The notes under the pieces are model-generated. The model did not search any database. It was not told the DNA's origin and saw only the letters and a list, made by a program, of their open reading frames with translations. Positions 5,333 to 13,867 of a stretch of DNA of 64,000 nt are shown piece after piece. Source of the stretch: Acidimicrobiia bacterium (lineage in GTDB: Bacteria > Actinomycetota > Acidimicrobiia > Acidimicrobiales > Aldehydirespiratoraceae); assembly GCA_022820805.1 (NCBI GenBank), contig JAJEEV010000043.1:137363-201362 (forward strand), in the 5' to 3' direction. Within the stretch, counting starts at the first letter, position 1; every line of letters begins with the position of its first letter. Made by a program: the position numbers and the translations under genes.

Positions 5333-8300
5333 TCACGTGTCCTCGCGGGCCCCGACCCGGCGGCGGGGGCTGCGGGCTCGGACCATCGCTACGGCATAGT
5401 CGCAGGCCAGGAGGATGATGGCGACCATGCCGAGGATGTGGACCGACTCGAACCTGACGGGCCACACGAAGTCGGGTGGGTAGCGCAGCCGGTACTGCTG
5501 GATCAGCACGAACAGCGCCGCTATCCCCAGTGAGGCGGCCGCGGTCATCGGGGCCAGCCACCACAGCCGGCGCCCGCGCAGGGCCAGCACGGTCACGACC
5601 CCCGCCAACGGGGCCAGCAGGTGCCAGTCACCAACGCTGGCGGCGGCCAGTGCGGTGACCGCCGCGGCGGCCAGGACGGCCGCAGCTGTCGACGGCCTCG
5701 ACCCAGGCATCTCATGCCAGGGCCACCGCAGCAGGGGACGGTCGGGCTCGAAGCGGGCCAGCGACGGCCGGGGCCCACCGCGGTCGGGGCGGCCCCGCCA
5801 GGCGATCAGCGCGGCGGCGACCACAGCCAGCGCCGAGAGGCGCAGGGCCCAGTCCACCAGCCGCTGGGGCGTCCAGCGCAGCTCGACTGTCGCGGCCTCG
5901 CCGGCGGGCAGGAGCCAGCCGTTGGCGAACCCGTCGATCACCACCGGCGGGCCCAGGTCTGCACCTGCGAGGGTGGCCTGCCAGCCCCGGTTGTGGCTCT
6001 GGGCCAGCACCAGCCAGCGGTCGCGGTCGCGGGCCGCCACATCGACCGTGTAGGACGTGTCGCGGTGGCGGACCGCGTGGACGCCGCCGGCGGCGTCCGG
6101 CGGGCCCACCGGCTGCGGACCGTGCAGCACCAGCTGGTCGATATCGAAGCCGGTGACCGACCCGGGCGCGGTGACGATCAGGCTCTCGGGAGCTCCGAGC
6201 GAGACTGGGGCGCAACCGTCGACTCTCAGCTCCCGGCGGGCCAGCGCGTCGCCGGCTGTGCCGGTGATGCGCACCGGCACGGACTGCCCGTCGATCGTCA
6301 ACAGATCGTCGCGGCAGCCGGTGTCGATGTCCGCGGGCGACCCGAGTCGGGGGCTGTTGTCGATCCGCGCCTCGGCCACCGATATGGGCAGGGCCACCAG
6401 ACCGTTGCTGTACCAGTCCCTGGTCAGGCGCTCGATCACCTCGGTGAACACCAGCCTCACGGTCGTGCCCGCCGCCTCCAGCGGCACGGAGACGGTTGCG
6501 GTGGTGTGGGGCTCGGCGCCAGCCGGAGCACCGGAGAGGCCCAACTCGTAGGTGCCCGCGTCGGCGCCGTCCACCAGCACCTGGACCGCGGCCGGGGTGG
6601 AGTGAAGCTCGTCCACCACCACATCCAGCTCGATGGATCCCGGCTCGAACGGCGCCGGTCGGGTCAGCTCCAGCCACTGGCCGGGCGGGGTGTCGAACCG
6701 GCCGGTCCATGCGGTCGCCGGATCGCCGTCGAGGACGGCGGAGGCCCGGCTGCCGAGGTCGCCGGCGAGGTGGCCCGAGGAGGAGGCCCCGCCCGCGGCC
6801 GATCCGGCCATCCCGACGAGCGCGTCGATCAGCTCAGCCGCCGCGGTCGTCGCCAGCCGGGCGCTGCCCGAGACCTCGACCTCGAGGCTGGCCGGCAGCG
6901 GGACGGCTCGCACCATGTGCAGCTCGGGGTCGGTGCGCACCGGCTCGCGGGGATTGGACCGCTCCCGGGTCAGGACGACGCTGAGGTGGTGGTCGTCGAG
7001 CTTGTCGCCGACGCGGTCGAGCAGTGCCCGCGGGGTGCGGATCACCTCGAGCACCGGCCCGAGGCCGAGGTCGATCTCGGCGAAGCCGACCGGCGCGACG
7101 GCGGGGTAGGTGGTCCGGCGGCCGATGTTGGTGCCGGTTATCTCTATGTCGATCACCGACGCCGCCACTCCCAGCGGGACCCGCTGGCCGCCGGGTGATC
7201 TCGACCTCTCGTCCAGGGTGATGGTGAGCGGGTCGCCGCCGTCGACGCGAACCTCGATCTCGGTGATGTGGCGATCGCTCTCGACGGTATGGCGCTGCGA
7301 GCGTCCCTGGGGCTGCACCAGGAGCATCGACTCCACCACGGCCGGTTCGGTGAGGGTGAGGCGCAGCTGCTCGCCGATGGCTTCGCTGAAGGCGGCCACC
7401 ACCCAGGCAGTGTCCAGCGATCCGTCCAGAGCGTTGTAGGGACGGTCGTCGTTGGTGTAGGTGACCGGGTTGCCGTGGGCGCTGGCCCGGGCCGCCACCG
7501 GGCCGCGCTGCTCGCTGACGGTGCGGACGTCGTCGACCGGGACGCCGTTGGCCGCGATGACGTCGTAGTCGAAGGCGGGCAGGCGGTTGTCGAGCGGGTC
7601 GTGGCGTATCGGCTGCTCGCCGGCCTGCTCGGTGTGGCCCCCGTTCTCCCGCAGCGTCCCCCACCGCTGGGCCCGCCGCCGGTTGGAGTCGGTCACCACG
7701 ATGTGAGCCGGCTCCGAGAGCACGAGGTCGCCGAGAGCGGGGTCGGCGGCCATGTCGGCGGCGAAGACGAGGGCTCGCTCGAGGTCGACGACCCCGGCAC
7801 CGGCCGCGTCGACGATCCCGTCGGCATCGCCCACCAGAACCGTGGCCCCCCCGACAGGCTTGGTGCGCACCACCGGCAGCGGGTCCGAGACCTCGTAGCG
7901 GGTCACCGGGGCGGGGTGCACGGCCCCGGGTGGACGGGCCAGGTGGATCTCGTCGATCAGGGTCTGCTCGGGGCCGGCCACATTGGGCACCGGCTCGCCG
8001 AAGGCCTCGACCGGCGCCAGGCCCGGCACGCGGCCGAGGAACTCAGCCGTCTCGACCGGCCTCGGGGTCCGGTAGCGCTCGAAAATCAGGTCGGCGCGGT
8101 GCACCACGTCACCCACCGACATCAGCCGGGCGACCGGCGCCAGGCTGGCGGGATCGAGCGTGTCCTCCTGCAGCCGCCGGTCGACCGCGCCCAGCAGCGA
8201 CGCCGACTGCGCCGAGCCGAACGGCACCAGCTCGCGGGCGACGTAGCCCCGTTCCATCAGGCCGGGCGTGATCGGGTCCACGGTGTTGCCCCAGCGGTAG

Positions 8301-9700
8301 GAGGCGAAGTCGGATCCGGGGACCTCCCACACCCGGGTCTCGCCACGGGAGTCGTCCCGGTCGAGCGACTCGGCCGCCTCCAGCCAGTACTCGGGAACCT
8401 CCTCGGGCCGGTTGAGGTGCTCCTCGACCATGCGGACCCTCCACATGGCCGGGTTGTTGAGCACGACGCCGATCAGCACCAGGGCGCCCACCACCGTCCC
8501 GACCCTGCGCATCCTCCCGGCCAGGGCATTGACGCCGGCACCCAGGAACACCGCCATCGCCAGGGCCAGCAGGGGGACGGCCCTCGGCAGCGAGCGCATG
8601 GCCAGCAGCGGCCCGGTGCGGGAGTAGCGCTCGAACAGTGACCCGAGCAGCGAGGGGTCCTCGGGGGGATGGAATCCCACCGCGATCAGGGCCCCCACCG
8701 CAGCCAGCAGCACGAAGTAGCTGCGGTGGCGCCAGCGCACCAGTGCGGCCGACCCGAGCGCCAGCACCGCCAGCCCGAAGCCCACGAAGAGCAGCCACCC
8801 GCCCTGGGTGTAGGCGACGCTGGGCTCGATCCAGGGTCCGAGCTTGTCGTTCCCGTAGAAGAACCAGTAGCCCAGGCTGCGCAGCACCTCCGGAGCGGTC
8901 GAGGCCGCTGCCACCACCTCGCGGCTCTCGGTGTAGCGCAGGACGTTCAGGCTGAAGCCGCTCTGCAGCACCAGCCCGGCCATCCACCACAGCGAAGCAG
9001 CCACGGTGAGCCCGCCGATCCGGGCGGCTGCAGCCAGCGCCCGGCGCGGTCCGATGCTGCGGTCGGTGACGGCCGCGTGCACGAGCCACAGCACGGGTCC
9101 GAGTCCGGCCAGCGCCAGGCTGGTGGCGTTGACGCTGCCCACGGTCACGGCAACCAGAGCGAAGAGCGCCGGATGGCGCCATCCCCCTGTGCGGGCCGAG
9201 CGGACGGTCAGGCCGATCAGCCAGCCCAGACCGGCCCACGGCAACAGCACAGCCGAGATGCGGGCCGAGTAGTTCAGCGCGTAGGGGCTCAGCTCGTAGG
9301 CGAGCATGGCGACCAGCAGGCCCCGGCCCTCGAAGCCGAGCGTTCGCAACAGGTAGCGGACGCCGAGTCCGGCCGCGAACAGCAGCGTTCCCACCCACAG
9401 GCGCTGAGCCACCCAGTCGGGGGCTCCGACGGTGTCGAAGAACCAGTAGAAGGGTCCCATCGGCCACAGGAAGCCGATGTTCTGATGGGTGACCGTTCCC
9501 AGAGCCCGGTCCGCATCCCAGAGAACGCCCGCCTGGCTCATCAGCCGGCCGGGGTCGAGGTACAGGTAGGTCTTGGTGTCCGCCCCCACCAGCCCCGGGC
9601 TCGAGGCGAGCAGCGGGACGTAGGCCACGGCCGCGGCCACCGCGACGGTCCACCGGGATCGGTGGCGCCACCACGCCACGGCCCGGTGCGGCCGCGTCAT
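5333..9700 (-). CDS. AftD-like alpha-(1->3)-arabinofuranosyltransferase (DUF3367 family) with carbohydrate-binding domains
   Basis: This is a 1455-residue polytopic membrane glycosyltransferase of the AftD/DUF3367 type. In mycobacteria AftD adds alpha-1,3-arabinofuranose to arabinogalactan and lipoarabinomannan. The N-terminus has a membrane helix (about 15-35) followed by GADTKTYLYLDP, and a multi-helix GT-C core extends to about residue 450. Two discoidin-like (F5/8 type C) signatures follow: YNALDGSLDTAW near residue 763 and AVLDGDPATAW near residue 995. Four or so helices occur near the C-terminus (about 1290-1440). Length matches AftD (about 1400). The downstream partner on the strand is none; upstream, the GT4 gene overlaps this start by 4 bp (ATGA), so the two are translationally coupled. 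The donor and acceptor in this organism are unknown; arabinan synthesis is inferred from the family. Confidence 0.82.
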   Translation of the reverse strand: MTRPHRAVAWWRHRSRWTVAVAAAVAYVPLLASSPGLVGADTKTYLYLDPGRLMSQAGVLWDADRALGTVTHQNIGFLWPMGPFYWFFDTVGAPDWVAQRLWVGTLLFAAGLGVRYLLRTLGFEGRGLLVAMLAYELSPYALNYSARISAVLLPWAGLGWLIGLTVRSARTGGWRHPALFALVAVTVGSVNATSLALAGLGPVLWLVHAAVTDRSIGPRRALAAAARIGGLTVAASLWWMAGLVLQSGFSLNVLRYTESREVVAAASTAPEVLRSLGYWFFYGNDKLGPWIEPSVAYTQGGWLLFVGFGLAVLALGSAALVRWRHRSYFVLLAAVGALIAVGFHPPEDPSLLGSLFERYSRTGPLLAMRSLPRAVPLLALAMAVFLGAGVNALAGRMRRVGTVVGALVLIGVVLNNPAMWRVRMVEEHLNRPEEVPEYWLEAAESLDRDDSRGETRVWEVPGSDFASYRWGNTVDPITPGLMERGYVARELVPFGSAQSASLLGAVDRRLQEDTLDPASLAPVARLMSVGDVVHRADLIFERYRTPRPVETAEFLGRVPGLAPVEAFGEPVPNVAGPEQTLIDEIHLARPPGAVHPAPVTRYEVSDPLPVVRTKPVGGATVLVGDADGIVDAAGAGVVDLERALVFAADMAADPALGDLVLSEPAHIVVTDSNRRRAQRWGTLRENGGHTEQAGEQPIRHDPLDNRLPAFDYDVIAANGVPVDDVRTVSEQRGPVAARASAHGNPVTYTNDDRPYNALDGSLDTAWVVAAFSEAIGEQLRLTLTEPAVVESMLLVQPQGRSQRHTVESDRHITEIEVRVDGGDPLTITLDERSRSPGGQRVPLGVAASVIDIEITGTNIGRRTTYPAVAPVGFAEIDLGLGPVLEVIRTPRALLDRVGDKLDDHHLSVVLTRERSNPREPVRTDPELHMVRAVPLPASLEVEVSGSARLATTAAAELIDALVGMAGSAAGGASSSGHLAGDLGSRASAVLDGDPATAWTGRFDTPPGQWLELTRPAPFEPGSIELDVVVDELHSTPAAVQVLVDGADAGTYELGLSGAPAGAEPHTTATVSVPLEAAGTTVRLVFTEVIERLTRDWYSNGLVALPISVAEARIDNSPRLGSPADIDTGCRDDLLTIDGQSVPVRITGTAGDALARRELRVDGCAPVSLGAPESLIVTAPGSVTGFDIDQLVLHGPQPVGPPDAAGGVHAVRHRDTSYTVDVAARDRDRWLVLAQSHNRGWQATLAGADLGPPVVIDGFANGWLLPAGEAATVELRWTPQRLVDWALRLSALAVVAAALIAWRGRPDRGGPRPSLARFEPDRPLLRWPWHEMPGSRPSTAAAVLAAAAVTALAAASVGDWHLLAPLAGVVTVLALRGRRLWWLAPMTAAASLGIAALFVLIQQYRLRYPPDFVWPVRFESVHILGMVAIILLACDYAVAMVRARSPRRRVGAREDT

Positions 9701-10851
9701 GGGTGCCGGCGGCGGACCTCGCCGGCCAGCACAGCCAGCGTGTCGTAGGCGGTTCGCTCCCAGGTGAGCCGGGCCGCCCGGGTCCTGGCCGCCTCGCCGA
9801 GCCGTTCACGGTGACGCTGGTCGACGACAAGCCTCTCGAGGGCGCCGACGAAGTCGCCGTCGCGGGCGGCGAGGTGTCCGGTCTCGCCGTCGGCGACCGC
9901 GTCGGCATGGCCGGCGATGTCCGAGACGACCGACGGGGTCCCGCAGGCGGCGGCCTCTGTGATGGTCATGCCCCAGCCCTCGGCGGTGGAGGCGCTGACC
10001 AGCGCCCACGCCCGCTGGTACAGGGCGGCCAGCGCGTCGTCGTCGATCCGGCCTGCCAGCACGCACCAGTCCTCCGCGCCCAGTTCCGACACCAGGCTCT
10101 CGAGGCGGTCCCGCTCGGTTCCCGAGCCCGCGATCACCAGCCGGGCCGCAGCGCGCTCTCGCAGCTGGGCGACGACCCGGATCACCCGGTCGAACTGCTT
10201 GGAGGCGGTGAGACGGCCCACGGCCACCAGCAGCGGCTCCGGATCCCTGGCCTCAGGGCTCGGACCGAAGCGGTCGTCTATCCCGGGCGGAACCACATGG
10301 ATCCGCTCGGGCCGGAGCCGGAATTGCTCCACCAGATGGCGGCGCACCGACTCCGAGAGCGTCACGACCGGCGTGCTGCGGTACAGCCGGGGTGCCACGT
10401 CCCGCTCGAAGGCGCGGCCCGCGGCCGCCCGGCCCGGCGGCAGCACCCGGTCCCACAGGTCGGTGTGGGGCTGGTGGATCCAGGCGGCCCGCGGTCGGCG
10501 GGCCCACAGCGGCGAGAGGAACGGCATACCGTTCCAGATCTCCACCAGCCCGTCGCGGGGGCCGTGGCCTCCGGCCATCTCGGCCAGGACCGCCCGGGGG
10601 AAGACCATGTAGCGCCCGCCGCGGCGGATCACCCGGTAGCCCGACCGGACCGCCGCCGGAGGCGAGCCCGCCGAGAAGGAGGTGCGCATCGTCACGTCCA
10701 CGCCGGCCTCGGCCCAGAGCCGGGCGACGCGGTCGGCATGGAGCTCCGAACCGCCGGCCTCGATGTCGTCGAGATCGCGCCAGGCGAGCAGATGGATCCG
10801 GCGCAGCCCGGCATCGGCGGCCAGATCGCCGATCTTGGCCACTGTCACCAC
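9697..10851 (-). CDS. Glycosyltransferase family 4 (GT-B fold)
   Basis: A 384-residue soluble GT-B glycosyltransferase. The N-terminal half has the GGSELHADRVARLW acceptor-side motif seen in GT4 enzymes. The C-terminal half has LVAVGRLTASKQFDRVI (about residue 210) and the nucleotide-sugar site EGWGMTITEAAACG (about residue 285), which contains the GT4 E-x7-E pair. It presumably uses a nucleotide-sugar donor on the cytoplasmic face. Its stop overlaps the start of the AftD-like gene by 4 bp, and the FAD oxidoreductase lies 22 bp upstream on the same strand. The three therefore form one envelope-glycan operon. Sugar and acceptor cannot be read from the sequence. Confidence 0.85.
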   Translation of the reverse strand: MVTVAKIGDLAADAGLRRIHLLAWRDLDDIEAGGSELHADRVARLWAEAGVDVTMRTSFSAGSPPAAVRSGYRVIRRGGRYMVFPRAVLAEMAGGHGPRDGLVEIWNGMPFLSPLWARRPRAAWIHQPHTDLWDRVLPPGRAAAGRAFERDVAPRLYRSTPVVTLSESVRRHLVEQFRLRPERIHVVPPGIDDRFGPSPEARDPEPLLVAVGRLTASKQFDRVIRVVAQLRERAAARLVIAGSGTERDRLESLVSELGAEDWCVLAGRIDDDALAALYQRAWALVSASTAEGWGMTITEAAACGTPSVVSDIAGHADAVADGETGHLAARDGDFVGALERLVVDQRHRERLGEAARTRAARLTWERTAYDTLAVLAGEVRRRHP

Positions 10852-10873: not shown

Positions 10874-12343
10874 CTAGCGGGGCTTGGCTGACGGGGCGGG
10901 AGCGGAGGTCCCGTCGAGCTCCTCGTGGTACTCCGCTTCGACGTTGACGCTCCAGATGTCGTGGGCTGTTCCGAGCACGATGTTCTCCACCGCGAGCATG
11001 GCCGTGAACATGGAGTGGTCCTGGTTGTTGTAGCGGTGCATGCCGTTGCGGCCGACCGGCCAGACGTTGGGCGCGTTGGCCTGGAGCCAGCCTCTCAGCA
11101 CGTCGACGCGGCTCTGGTATCCCCGCGAGTACATGGGGTAGGCCTTCGGCATCCGGACCACCCAGCCTCCCTGCACCGCGCCGGCGGGCACCAGCCCCAG
11201 CGTCTCGAGCTCGCGGGAGGCCAGGGACACCAGACACTCGTCCGAAGCGGTCCACAGGTCGTCGCCCTCGAAGACGAAGTACTCGAGTCCCAGGCACGTC
11301 ATGTCGTCGGCGGGAACCATGTGCGGCGACCACGACCGGAAGTTCTGCACCCTGCCCACCCGCACATCGGGGGAGTGGATGTAGACCCAGTTGTCGGCGA
11401 AGGCCGCATCGGCCGGGACGGCGAGGGCCACGGTCAGGAAGTCCCGGAACGTGAGGCCCGCGGCCGCCTCCAACACCTCGGGCGGCGGCTCGGGGTCCAT
11501 AGACTCCACCAGCCGCGGGAGCGGCATGGACGAGACCACGCTGCTGCACCCGATCTCGACGTCGCGGCCGCCGGTTCGGGCCACGACCGACACCGCCCGG
11601 CCGTCGCGGTGGCGGACGGAGGTGACGGGGTGGTCCATGAGCAGGCCCACGCCGCGGGCCTGCACGAGTTCGGCGCACCGCTCCCACATCATCCCCGGCC
11701 CGTGCCTGGGGTACTCGAAGGAGTCGATGAGGCTCGTGATCGCCGTGCGCCGGCGACGTGGCAGCAGCCCGTTGGTCACGGCCTTCAGCAGGTTGAGGTT
11801 CTTGATGCGCTGAGCGGCCCAGTCGGCCTGGATCTCGGTGGCGGGCACGCCCCACACCTTCTCGGTGTAGGTCTTGAAGAACGTCCGGTACAGGCGCCAC
11901 CCGAACTGCGCCGCCATGTAGCCCTCGAACGAGCTCTGGTCCGCGGGCGGCCGCAGGCGGGCCCACGCGTACGAGGCCGCGCAGCGGGCCGCCTCGATCG
12001 GCCCGAGGTTCGACAGGGCGTTGCGCACGTTCAGGGGGTAGTCGTAGAACTTGCCGCCGTAGTAGATGCGGCTCAGCCGCGGGCGAACCAGGAAGTCCTC
12101 CGAGCCGAGGATCTCGTACCAGAGGTCGCGCACCGCGGAGACCTTGGTGAAGAACCGGTGCCCGCCGATGTCGAAGCGCCATCCGTCGCGCTGCACGGTC
12201 TGGGAGATCCCGCCGATCTCCGACGTGGCCTCGACCACGGTGCTCGTGACCCCGTGCTTGGCGAACTGGTACGCCGCGGTCAGCCCGGCCGGGCCGGCAC
12301 CGATGATGACCGGGCCGGCTGCGTCGGAGGTGTCACTGGCCAT
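10874..12343 (-). CDS. NAD(P)/FAD-dependent oxidoreductase (UDP-galactopyranose mutase / protoporphyrinogen oxidase-like)
   Basis: A 489-residue flavoprotein. VIIGAGPAGLTAAYQFAKHG at residues 12-31 is a textbook FAD Rossmann motif, followed by EATSEIGGISQTV and GWRFDIGGHRFF, which are conserved in UDP-galactopyranose mutase-like and HemY-like amine-oxidase-fold proteins. Near the C-terminus, VGRNGMHRYNNQDHSM is the typical FAD-contacting closure of the actinobacterial members. These are often found beside polysaccharide genes. Its position upstream of a GT4 and an AftD-like enzyme suggests a role in sugar-nucleotide or lipid-sugar conversion (inference). A TACACT element ends 9 bp before the ATG, so the transcript probably has almost no leader. 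Confidence 0.8.
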   Translation of the reverse strand: MASDTSDAAGPVIIGAGPAGLTAAYQFAKHGVTSTVVEATSEIGGISQTVQRDGWRFDIGGHRFFTKVSAVRDLWYEILGSEDFLVRPRLSRIYYGGKFYDYPLNVRNALSNLGPIEAARCAASYAWARLRPPADQSSFEGYMAAQFGWRLYRTFFKTYTEKVWGVPATEIQADWAAQRIKNLNLLKAVTNGLLPRRRRTAITSLIDSFEYPRHGPGMMWERCAELVQARGVGLLMDHPVTSVRHRDGRAVSVVARTGGRDVEIGCSSVVSSMPLPRLVESMDPEPPPEVLEAAAGLTFRDFLTVALAVPADAAFADNWVYIHSPDVRVGRVQNFRSWSPHMVPADDMTCLGLEYFVFEGDDLWTASDECLVSLASRELETLGLVPAGAVQGGWVVRMPKAYPMYSRGYQSRVDVLRGWLQANAPNVWPVGRNGMHRYNNQDHSMFTAMLAVENIVLGTAHDIWSVNVEAEYHEELDGTSAPAPSAKPR

Positions 12344-12352
12344 CGGTGGCCG

Positions 12353-12358
12353 AGTGTA
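12353..12358 (-). promoter_or_regulatory. -10 element of a near-leaderless promoter for the envelope-glycan operon
   Basis: TACACT on the minus strand ends 9 nt before the ATG at 12343. Transcription starting about 7 nt downstream would give a 2-3 nt leader. No clear -35 box is seen. Confidence 0.45.
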
Positions 12359-12387
12359 GGGCCGGCGCTACAGCAGCCGGGACGCGA

Positions 12388-12952
12388 CGGAGCCCCGAGT
12401 AGCCTCGCGACCTGCGCCGCTCAACTTCTCGGGGCTCCGAGTGCGCCTTTACCACCGACCGCATCCTCCCGGCGGAGTCTGCGGTGCTCCGGGGCCCATT
12501 CCCGTATCCGGTCCTGTGCCCTGATCCCCGCCCCGGACGCCTCCGTGGCGTGAATCTGAATCACCCGGTCGTGCCCGTCGGCACCGCACCTGGCTCCGGC
12601 TCCGTTCCTCTCCCCGTCGGGTTCGGATTCGATTCCGATGCCTGTGCGACACCCTCACCCGGAGGCGGTTCCGGTGACTCCCTCTCACACCCGCCGGTGT
12701 GTTCGGTTGTCACCGGGCTTTCCCGGTGAGGCGGTCCTCCTTCGGCTTTGCGGTCCTCGTCCCCCGTCGGGGATTCCTACTGCTCACCCGGAGTAGAACC
12801 TCCGTGTCCCCGGCTGACCCGCCGGCTCCCGAGGGAACCGGCCTGGTTGGCTGGGTGTCCTCTGCGGACCGCTCTGTTGACTCCGCTCCGCTGCCTCGGG
12901 CCGAGACCCTCGGACTTCGGTTCAGTGTCGCTATCGCTGCTCACGTCGGACG
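12388..12952 (-). ncRNA. Candidate structured non-coding RNA of unknown class
   Basis: The 760 bp between 12343 and 13106 contain no convincing protein gene. Short ORFs exist on both strands but they lack ribosome-binding sites, recognisable domains and consistent codon bias. The minus strand instead shows closely spaced hairpins: 12901-12913, 12857-12869, 12822-12841 (8 bp including one G-U pair), 12789-12804, 12762-12772, 12710-12729 (8 bp, 4-nt loop), 12686-12701 (6 bp) and 12655-12677 (8 bp with one bulge). A perfect 12-bp inverted repeat (12388-12399 with 12428-12439) may mark the 3' end. A promoter with 17-bp spacing lies just upstream. No conserved core of RNase P RNA, tmRNA, SRP RNA or 6S RNA was found. 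The 3' boundary is a guess. A decayed transposon end is the main alternative. Confidence 0.35.
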
Positions 12953-12958
12953 CTGCGC

Positions 12959-12987
12959 ATCTTGAAGGGTCTTCGCCGGATTGTCAA
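12959..12987 (-). promoter_or_regulatory. Sigma70-type promoter for the candidate RNA
   Basis: On the minus strand a perfect -35 hexamer TTGACA (12987-12982) is followed after exactly 17 bp by CAAGAT (12964-12959). The -10 box keeps the conserved A at position 2 and AT at positions 5-6. The predicted start is near 12952. This is the best -35 box noticed in any intergenic region of the window. Confidence 0.55.
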
Positions 12988-12998
12988 CCTCGATCAGC

Positions 12999-13039
12999 GA
13001 AATCCCCATCGAAATCCCGAACATCGGCGAGAAATCCCC
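12999..13039 (-). repeat. Three direct repeats GGGATTTC upstream of the promoter
   Basis: The octamer GGGATTTC occurs three times on the minus strand, at 13039-13031 (as GGGGATTTC), 13018-13011 and 13007-12999 (as GGGGATTTC). The start-to-start steps are 20-21 and about 12 bp. They lie upstream of the -35 box at 12987, where activator sites would be. The binding protein is unknown. Confidence 0.4.
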
Positions 13040-13105
13040 AGGCAGCACCGACTTATGCACAGACGAACCACAGTTTGACGCCGTCCGAGGCCGTCAGGTT
13101 GCCGC

Positions 13106-13867
13106 TCAGAGGCTCCAGTGGCCGCGCTCGACCATCACCTGCCGCAGCACCGCGGGCCGGTCCGTCATGATGCCGTCGACGCCCAGGTCCAGCAGCCGGT
13201 GCATCTCCGCGGGATCGTCGATGGTCCACACATGGACCGCGATCCCGTGGCGGTGGGCCGCGTCCACGACCTGGGGCCGCACCAGCGTGAGGCCCTTGGA
13301 GCGGACCGGAACCTGGGCCGCGTGGAAGTCGAAGGACCCCATCGCCGGGAGGCGGGCCGACGCCGCCAGCAGGCGGGCGATGCCGCGGGGCCCGGCACCG
13401 ACACAGAGCGCGTCGCCGATGCGGTCGCGCACCCGCTGCGTGCGCCGGTCCGAGAACGAGCAGACGCAGACCCGCTCGACGGCGCCGAGGCGCTGGAGCA
13501 CCTCGACGAGGGGCTCGACCGCTGCATCGCTCTTGGGGTCGATGTTGATCCGGGTGTCCGGCAGCTCCTCCAGGAGCTCGTCGAGGCGCACGACCGGGTC
13601 GCTGCCCGCCACCCGGGCCTGCCGGACCTGACTCCAGGCCAAGTCGCCGACAGCGCCGCGGCTGTCGGTCACCCGGTCGAGCGTGTCGTCGTGGAAGGCC
13701 ACCGCCACGCCGTCGGCGGTGGCATGGACGTCGGTCTCCACATGGGTGTATCCGAGGGACACCGCGTGACGGAAGGCCCGCAGTGTGTTCTCCGGGTACT
13801 CCTCGGCCCCGCCGCGATGGGCGAAGGCGATGGGCCCGTCCGTGTCCAGGTAGGGGTGGCGGGGCAC
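13106..13867 (-). CDS. Glycerophosphodiester phosphodiesterase family protein
   Basis: A 253-residue TIM-barrel phosphodiesterase that hydrolyses glycerophosphodiesters to glycerol-3-phosphate and an alcohol. The N-terminal catalytic motif AHRGG...EYPENT (about residues 16-28) gives the conserved His, Arg and Glu. ETDVHATADGVAV plus FHDDTLDR gives the metal-binding Glu/Asp and the second catalytic His. There is no signal peptide, so it is probably cytoplasmic (UgpQ-like). The start is the GTG at 13867. A TACGGT element ends 6 nt before it, implying a leaderless transcript divergent from pyk. Length is normal for the short bacterial form. Confidence 0.9.
   Translation of the reverse strand: MPRHPYLDTDGPIAFAHRGGAEEYPENTLRAFRHAVSLGYTHVETDVHATADGVAVAFHDDTLDRVTDSRGAVGDLAWSQVRQARVAGSDPVVRLDELLEELPDTRINIDPKSDAAVEPLVEVLQRLGAVERVCVCSFSDRRTQRVRDRIGDALCVGAGPRGIARLLAASARLPAMGSFDFHAAQVPVRSKGLTLVRPQVVDAAHRHGIAVHVWTIDDPAEMHRLLDLGVDGIMTDRPAVLRQVMVERGHWSL

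Follow-up and report, generated by a model that had tools for sequence, protein, structure and literature searches.

Does the 762-bp gap between a glycerophosphodiester phosphodiesterase (GDPD) gene and an FAD-dependent oxidoreductase gene hold a gene of its own and, if so, of what kind? A sequence-only reading of the 64,000-nucleotide stretch of DNA analyzed here (the window) had seen no credible gene in this interval and had proposed an approximately 550-nt noncoding RNA of unknown class, preceded on the minus strand by its own activated promoter. The proposal of such an RNA is supported by covariation, by conservation, and by the absence of Rfam and Pfam matches; positions 12381-12952 of the minus strand almost certainly specify a structured RNA. 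The features of the locus are collected in Table 1, in which the 5' end of the RNA near 12952 is deduced from the promoter and the 3' end near 12381 is predicted.

Table 1. Features at the RNA locus, in window coordinates
Feature	Position	Strand	Basis or remark
Intergenic interval	12344-13105		Between GDPD gene and FAD-dependent oxidoreductase gene
Structured noncoding RNA gene, ~572 nt (predicted)	12381..12952	minus	Conserved block, consensus folds, covariation, z-score
3' hairpin, terminator-like, most conserved element of the family	12381..12439	minus	Models R1, R2; covariation
GNCG-capped hairpin 1, loop GACG	12761..12772	minus	
GNCG-capped hairpin 2, loop GGCG	12686..12701	minus	
GNCG-capped hairpin 3, loop GACG	12610..12623	minus	
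GNCG-capped hairpin 4, loop GACG	12571..12585	minus	
GNCG-capped hairpin 5, loop GCCG	12466..12477	minus	
Sigma-70-type promoter, 17-bp spacer	-35 TTGACA, 12987-12982; -10 CAAGAT, 12964-12959	minus	Sequence; same layout in relatives
Three upstream repeats, CTGGGGATTTC / TCGGGATTTC / ATGGGGATTTC	12999..13041	minus	Outer two in phased TGKGGA array
TTATGCACA, DnaA-box-like	13053..13061	plus	Occupies place of distal array element, TGTGGANAA in relatives
GDPD, upstream neighbor	13106..13867	minus	Pfam PF03009, E 7.2e-46
FAD-dependent amine-oxidase-fold oxidoreductase, downstream neighbor	10874..12343	minus	Pfam PF01593, E 1.1e-20

Open reading frames (ORFs) of 79-140 amino acids are present on both strands, and the five that we tested in or across the region had no Pfam match. 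When the window was compared with 11 relatives of the same genus, whose RNA regions are 80-94% identical to it, all 55 indels (55/55) measured 1-2 nt and none was a multiple of three. No reading frame is therefore shared and the RNA region is not coding, as the sequence-only reading had held. Rfam 15 at the gathering score gave zero matches in the whole 64-kb window and 0 across 20 relatives' loci, and the best E-value in a permissive search of the RNA region was 2.6. RNase P RNA and tmRNA, whose conserved cores were not visible to the earlier reading, resemble the RNA in size class. The genome's single RF00010 match (230 bits) sits on another contig, and ARAGORN found no tmRNA in the window. 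In the open-licence literature searched, titles and abstract openings contained neither a description of this RNA nor a global regulatory RNA for Acidimicrobiia. The RNA is a new family of an already known broad kind, that of structured RNAs transcribed as units of their own.

When the 762-bp interval was used as a DNA query, 16 of 31 genomes gave a match, the window's own included. Within the genus, 13 of the 15 other genomes were matched, twelve of them strongly (79-91% identity, one split over two contigs). In G004 the match came in pieces only, and the unit spans about 253 nt from the 5' motif to the end of the hairpin. Two of three genomes from other genera of the family were matched weakly, and none of 12 genomes from other families of the order was matched in this search. 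The alignment of relatives revealed a block conserved from the upstream repeats to slightly beyond the 3' hairpin. The region proposed for the RNA was real; its proposed end at 12388 fell slightly short, as conservation and the 3' stem reach about 12381.

The many hairpins described earlier were recovered as predicted structure. The single-sequence fold had a z-score of -6.56 (0/100 shuffles were equally stable), and the consensus structure shared by 12 sequences of the genus had 27 helices and 170 pairs with 98.3% of cells paired. A fold of 16 sequences drawn from eight of the family's genera comprised 99 pairs with 93.2% of cells paired; both folds were predicted from the same alignments in which pairs were counted, which favors them, above all in the percentage paired. 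Covariation was evident at both depths: both-sided changes occurred at 12/170 pairs in the genus, compared to 6.6 in shuffles (0/500 as high; 1-5 when slid), and at 58/99 pairs across the eight genera, compared to 33.5 in shuffles (0/500; 15-26 when slid), the shuffles preserving column composition and not relatedness. Further pair types in the genus fold were not above shuffles (217/500 reached the count). Both-sided change was present in 16 of 17 helices, the exception being a 3-pair helix (108-110/605-607). Pairing favors the minus strand, on which 93.2% of cells pair compared to 79.7% on the plus strand, in a test that leans toward the minus strand because the structure was predicted there; in the minus-strand reading, there were 237 G-U and 24 A-C cells.

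An inverted repeat near the end of the RNA, which the earlier reading had also pointed out, lies in the 3' hairpin. Its arms (12388-12402 and 12425-12439) are 15 nt long and 93% complementary. Across the family the hairpin carries the motif GAGRAGYYGA ... GAGGCUACUC, with the consensus GGCCCCGAG-R-AGUU-GA-CCGG-loop-CCGG-GA-GGCU-A-CUCGGGGCC. Two nearly constant features, an R.A mismatch and a tandem G.A internal loop, break up the long helix, whose flanking pairs vary. In a set of 26 hairpins representing nine families of the order, pairing holds in 94.9% of cells, and 10/21 pairs show both-sided changes (0/500 shuffles). A T-run follows the hairpin in several relatives, so the hairpin is probably also a terminator; none follows the window copy. 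The near-invariant internal loop indicates that the hairpin is more than a terminator, and we rejected an intrinsic terminator as the sole explanation because the loop is kept in 26 diverse hairpins and the body is conserved in the family. In family f56, a second, partly degraded 3' hairpin lies about 90-100 bp further on (L056 reverse complement, ~1595-1650; G272:C155:16464, 16557).

Two models, R1 and R2, represent the 59-position 3' hairpin alone, so that distant matches to them could share a terminator style and not the whole RNA. At E<=0.01, R1 matched 40/51 family genomes and 105/298 order genomes, the latter partly through weak or opposite-strand echoes. At E<=1e-4, R2 matched 90/298 order genomes (208/298 were unmatched), 76/395 class genomes, 41 of them outside the order, and 16/396 phylum genomes, 12 of them outside the class. 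Seven of the class matches outside the order were read as sequence (L094-L097, L099, L100, and L103). Among the phylum matches outside the class, we judged L101, L112, L102, L113, and L114 plausible on reading (L106 excluded) and L105, L109, and L110 ambiguous, and took L104, L107, and L111 for chance or plain terminators. Candidate units in families f104, f111, and f95 have a promoter, a body of about 150-220 nt, and the same hairpin motif. A hairpin-pattern scan of named genomes returned 37 loci, 30 titled Acidimicrobi- and seven otherwise. The RNA family is spread through Acidimicrobiales and other Acidimicrobiia, and the window copy is a long-form member. RNA length ranges from about 150 to 730 nt across lineages. 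From promoter to hairpin end it is ~550-570 nt in the window's family, ~730 nt in f28, 220-270 nt in f35, and ~155-215 nt in several others, based on automatic promoter picks of which a few are evidently wrong (L052, L075) and with six loci having no pick or a weak one.

Two details of the distant loci deserve mention. In the ambiguous L105, L109, and L110, from three other genomes of the phylum, a promoter-like pair runs straight into a hairpin of ~60 nt that looks like the 3' hairpin (near 1480-1560); these are possible hairpin-only units. In L113 and L114, from the very AT-rich family f95, a TTGACA-type promoter, a ~170-nt unit, the hairpin motif, and a long T-run lie near 1400-1570, adjoining a branched-chain aminotransferase-like gene (by eye).

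The minus-strand promoter that the sequence-only reading had reported, TTGACA and CAAGAT with 17 bp between them, is present at 12987-12959, and so are the three direct repeats upstream of it, all on the minus strand. The repeats share GGGATTTC (13038-13031, 13018-13011, and 13006-12999, all minus). These are its only three copies in the 64-kb window, where 0.60 were expected; since 3/100 shuffles also reach three copies, the clustering within 40 bp is the notable part. Among members of the genus, the promoter is kept while the sequence past the hairpin differs.

Upstream of 44 representative hairpins (<=1 kb), we counted 47 copies of CTGGGGA on the RNA strand and 1 on the opposite strand, with 6.0 expected, a count that ignores relatedness. 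The element is present at 30/44 loci. It is missing at 14/44, so the array is not family-wide; the 14 include all seven class loci outside the order (six from f71/f72 and one from f62), and in four others of the 14 (L045, L065, L066, and L068) TGGGGA is present but its leading C is not. Measured from each TGKGGA to the TTGA that comes next, distances peak near 20-21, 32, 42, 52-53, 63-64, 73-75, and 84-86. Phase coherence (R) was 0.82 at 10.5 bp (n 94) and 0.05, 0.50, 0.82, and 0.56 at 9.5, 10, 11, and 11.5 bp, respectively, for distances that are non-independent within a locus and with a TTGA that is simply the next one downstream. We regard the TGKGGA array as a probable phased activator site. 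Judged from sequence, the earlier suggestion that the promoter is activated appears strengthened by helically phased repeats common to several families. The distal member of the array is often TGTGGANAA, and the proximal members are CTGGGGATTTC. Both TTATGCACA and TGTGGANAA are DnaA-box-like, and their presence at the distal site suggests DnaA as a candidate activator.

We then considered the genes flanking the RNA. Beyond GDPD in the window lies pyruvate kinase, on the plus strand. GDPD was found at 22/41 relatives' loci and the FAD oxidoreductase at 13/41 (one weak 34-residue match excluded), with one or both at 29/41 and neither at 12/41; these loci (L036-L076, family and order) are partly non-independent, and some are shortened by contig ends. 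In other families of the class, the RNA adjoins a UvrD helicase gene; neighbor genes were viewed at ten of the class loci outside the order. The helicase was established with Pfam on two loci, L168, with a zincin-like metallopeptidase nearby, and L164, with a lactone oxidase nearby; UvrD-like sequences were seen by eye at L165, L169, L170, and L171 too. In three genomes of the sister genus g2 (G016, G058, and G062), GDPD and a gene whose beginning resembles that of the oxidoreductase lie ~100-300 bp apart and the RNA is absent between them, and in G011 another gene lies close behind GDPD, again with the RNA absent (all by eye). In L185, the locus from the GDPD search in G024, reading likewise found no RNA downstream. 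R2 at E up to 1 gave weak matches in 4/6 g2 genomes (E 0.01-0.47, six places), and these stretches (L181 excluded) resemble coding sequence or a plain terminator. No GDPD was found in G005 (84% complete), G036, and G037, so the absence of the RNA there says little. GDPD is a conserved neighbor, and neither GDPD nor the oxidoreductase belongs to the RNA. Since the RNA is missing in some genomes that keep GDPD, it behaves as a discrete unit that may be absent. The conserved promoter, the varied neighbors (UvrD), and the lack of the RNA between GDPD and the oxidoreductase in the three g2 genomes all argue, with high confidence, for a predicted independent transcription unit.

The body of the window RNA is marked by recurring hairpin loops. 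Its minimum-energy fold contains five C-G-closed GNCG tetraloops, four of which pass a stricter count. In 43 RNAs, whose ends were partly placed by eye, C(GNCG)G hairpins extended by three or more further pairs numbered 76 compared to 6.3 in dinucleotide shuffles, relatedness being ignored in these counts. GNCG loops made up 53/176 in 15 long forms and 1/73 in 16 short forms. Repetition of the loop inside single RNAs suggests multivalent binding. As these hairpins are nearly absent from short forms, multivalence would be an addition of the long forms and not the core function.

Our best reading of the locus as a whole, which we hold with about even confidence, is that it encodes an RNA with a transcription unit of its own, activated conditionally, which acts in trans in the form of a ribonucleoprotein. 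The RNA would be transcribed as its own unit from the conserved promoter. Strong, conditional expression would come from a DNA-binding activator seated on the phased TGKGGA repeats, which precede the -35 element, and the RNA would then act in trans together with protein, a mechanism drawn by analogy for which we see the chances as evenly balanced. All forms could dock protein and end the transcript at the conserved 3' hairpin, with its R.A mismatch and tandem G.A loop. The long forms would add a covarying body of many helices, whose several alike C(GNCG)G hairpins may make it a multivalent platform for holding or titrating a protein.

The main rival, which we consider unlikely, is that the RNA is present in abundance and corresponds in Acidimicrobiia to 6S or Ms1; it would bind RNA polymerase, as holoenzyme or core, and would reduce transcription capacity or keep it in store while growth is slow. 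A housekeeping-type promoter, an independent unit, and variable sequence all agree with it. Ms1, which is about 300 nt long in mycobacteria, is likewise actinobacterial, weakly conserved in sequence, and independently transcribed, as is predicted for the window RNA. The niche in Acidimicrobiia also seems open: one source describes 6S RNA as not identified in actinobacteria save for one Streptomyces candidate (PMC11077062), and the main text of an Ms1 survey that predicts Ms1 by synteny in 14 actinobacterial orders has no word starting with Acidimicrobi (PMC9130861). According to the same survey, however, Ms1 typically lies between a HAD-IB hydrolase gene and an oxidoreductase gene and is about 230 nt long in Streptomyces coelicolor (PMC9130861). 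Set against these descriptions, the window RNA is longer and multi-branched, and its neighbors are GDPD and an FAD oxidoreductase (a UvrD helicase in other lineages) with the HAD hydrolase absent; the shared synteny word "oxidoreductase" is unspecific. With 6S, the RNA has in common the general kind of an independent noncoding RNA gene. It has no match in Rfam, where 6S is presumed to be included, and at 572 nt the multi-branched consensus of the window RNA, like the long forms in general, differs from a single ~180-nt rod with a large central bubble.

The length, GC-rich multi-helix structure, and deep covariation of the RNA also recall OLE, GOLLD, and ROOL, which are large, intricate, deeply covarying RNAs, and repeated alike loops could make intermolecular contacts in a catalytic or self-assembling ornate RNA of this manner. 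We hold this to be distinctly unlikely, because no covariance model matched the window RNA, although these families are presumed to be in Rfam 15, and because the family shrinks to far smaller forms (~150 nt in some lineages and ~253 nt in one genus member). GOLLD-like RNAs often occur in viral contigs; the exact hairpin pattern, which overlooks diverged copies, had 0 matches in viral contigs, and a phage-borne ornate RNA was rejected on this result. Pairing of the loops with mRNAs, as in a base-pairing regulatory RNA, would fit the RNA's own promoter and terminator-like end, typical of bacterial small RNAs, but covarying helices take up much of the sequence, and we give this explanation little credence. 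CsrB and RsmZ, which act through repeated alike hairpin loops and vary in length, offer another likeness. The RNA differs from them in having GNCG and not GGA loops, its short forms lack the repeats, and a CsrB-type sponge was excluded since CsrA is absent from the assembly: no PF02599 match was found in the window's genome (94.8% complete), in a search whose control was positive in E. coli, B. subtilis, and T. maritima. The position of the RNA directly between two minus-strand genes could point to a cis-acting leader, terminator, or attenuator of those genes. This is highly improbable given that the sequence past the hairpin differs among same-genus relatives, the neighbors remain adjacent without the RNA in the sister genus, and unrelated genes adjoin it in other lineages. 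As for a decayed or overlooked protein gene, the ORFs on both strands would be its trace, but the missing Pfam matches, the uniformly frame-breaking indels, and the compensatory changes that track helices leave it next to no probability.

The reading as a trans-acting ribonucleoprotein can be extended. In a broader form, which we put forward tentatively and think rather unlikely as a whole, this would be an ancient actinobacterial RNA (at least class-wide and possibly phylum-wide) acting as a global ribonucleoprotein regulator, with expression tied to growth or replication and with a GNCG sponge in long forms. A factor binding the phased TGKGGA repeats would couple expression of the Acidimicrobiales RNA to growth or replication, a similar array preceding dnaB in the window's genome. 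If so, the RNA would fill a global-regulator role where 6S and Ms1 are unknown. Retention of the RNA across a large, mostly uncultured class, with compensatory evolution and an elaborate promoter, indicates that it is under selection. Handles for a transcript search, a pull-down, and a hunt for the activator come from the covariance models and from the promoter array, and the natural absences in close relatives (the three g2 genomes and G011) are ready comparisons.

Finally, we noted several sequences elsewhere. Of the four copies of TGGGGATTTC in the 3.4-Mb assembly, two belong to the RNA locus. Another lies in the rplI-dnaB gap, where an array of CTGGGGATTTCG, CCGGGGA, and TGGGGGA runs at 21- and 10-bp steps (L154 ~1500, G000:C14:184874); this array is opposite in orientation to dnaB and phased like that of the RNA promoter. 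The fourth has a selenocysteine tRNA gene (1324-1419) some 80 bp away (L155 ~1500, G000:C25:11834). MraZ was weighed as a candidate activator, and the sequence speaks neither for nor against it. The window's genome contains mraZ, and no TGGGGA array was found in the region upstream of it. In its leader, TGTGGA and TCGGGA stand 10 nt from each other directly behind a -10-like element (L177 reverse complement, ~1370-1430), a possible operator resembling the upstream repeats of the RNA. In the window itself, a 1,455-residue ORF at 5333-9700 (minus) is membrane-protein-like, and a glycosyltransferase-like ORF adjoins it at 9697-10851 (both by eye).
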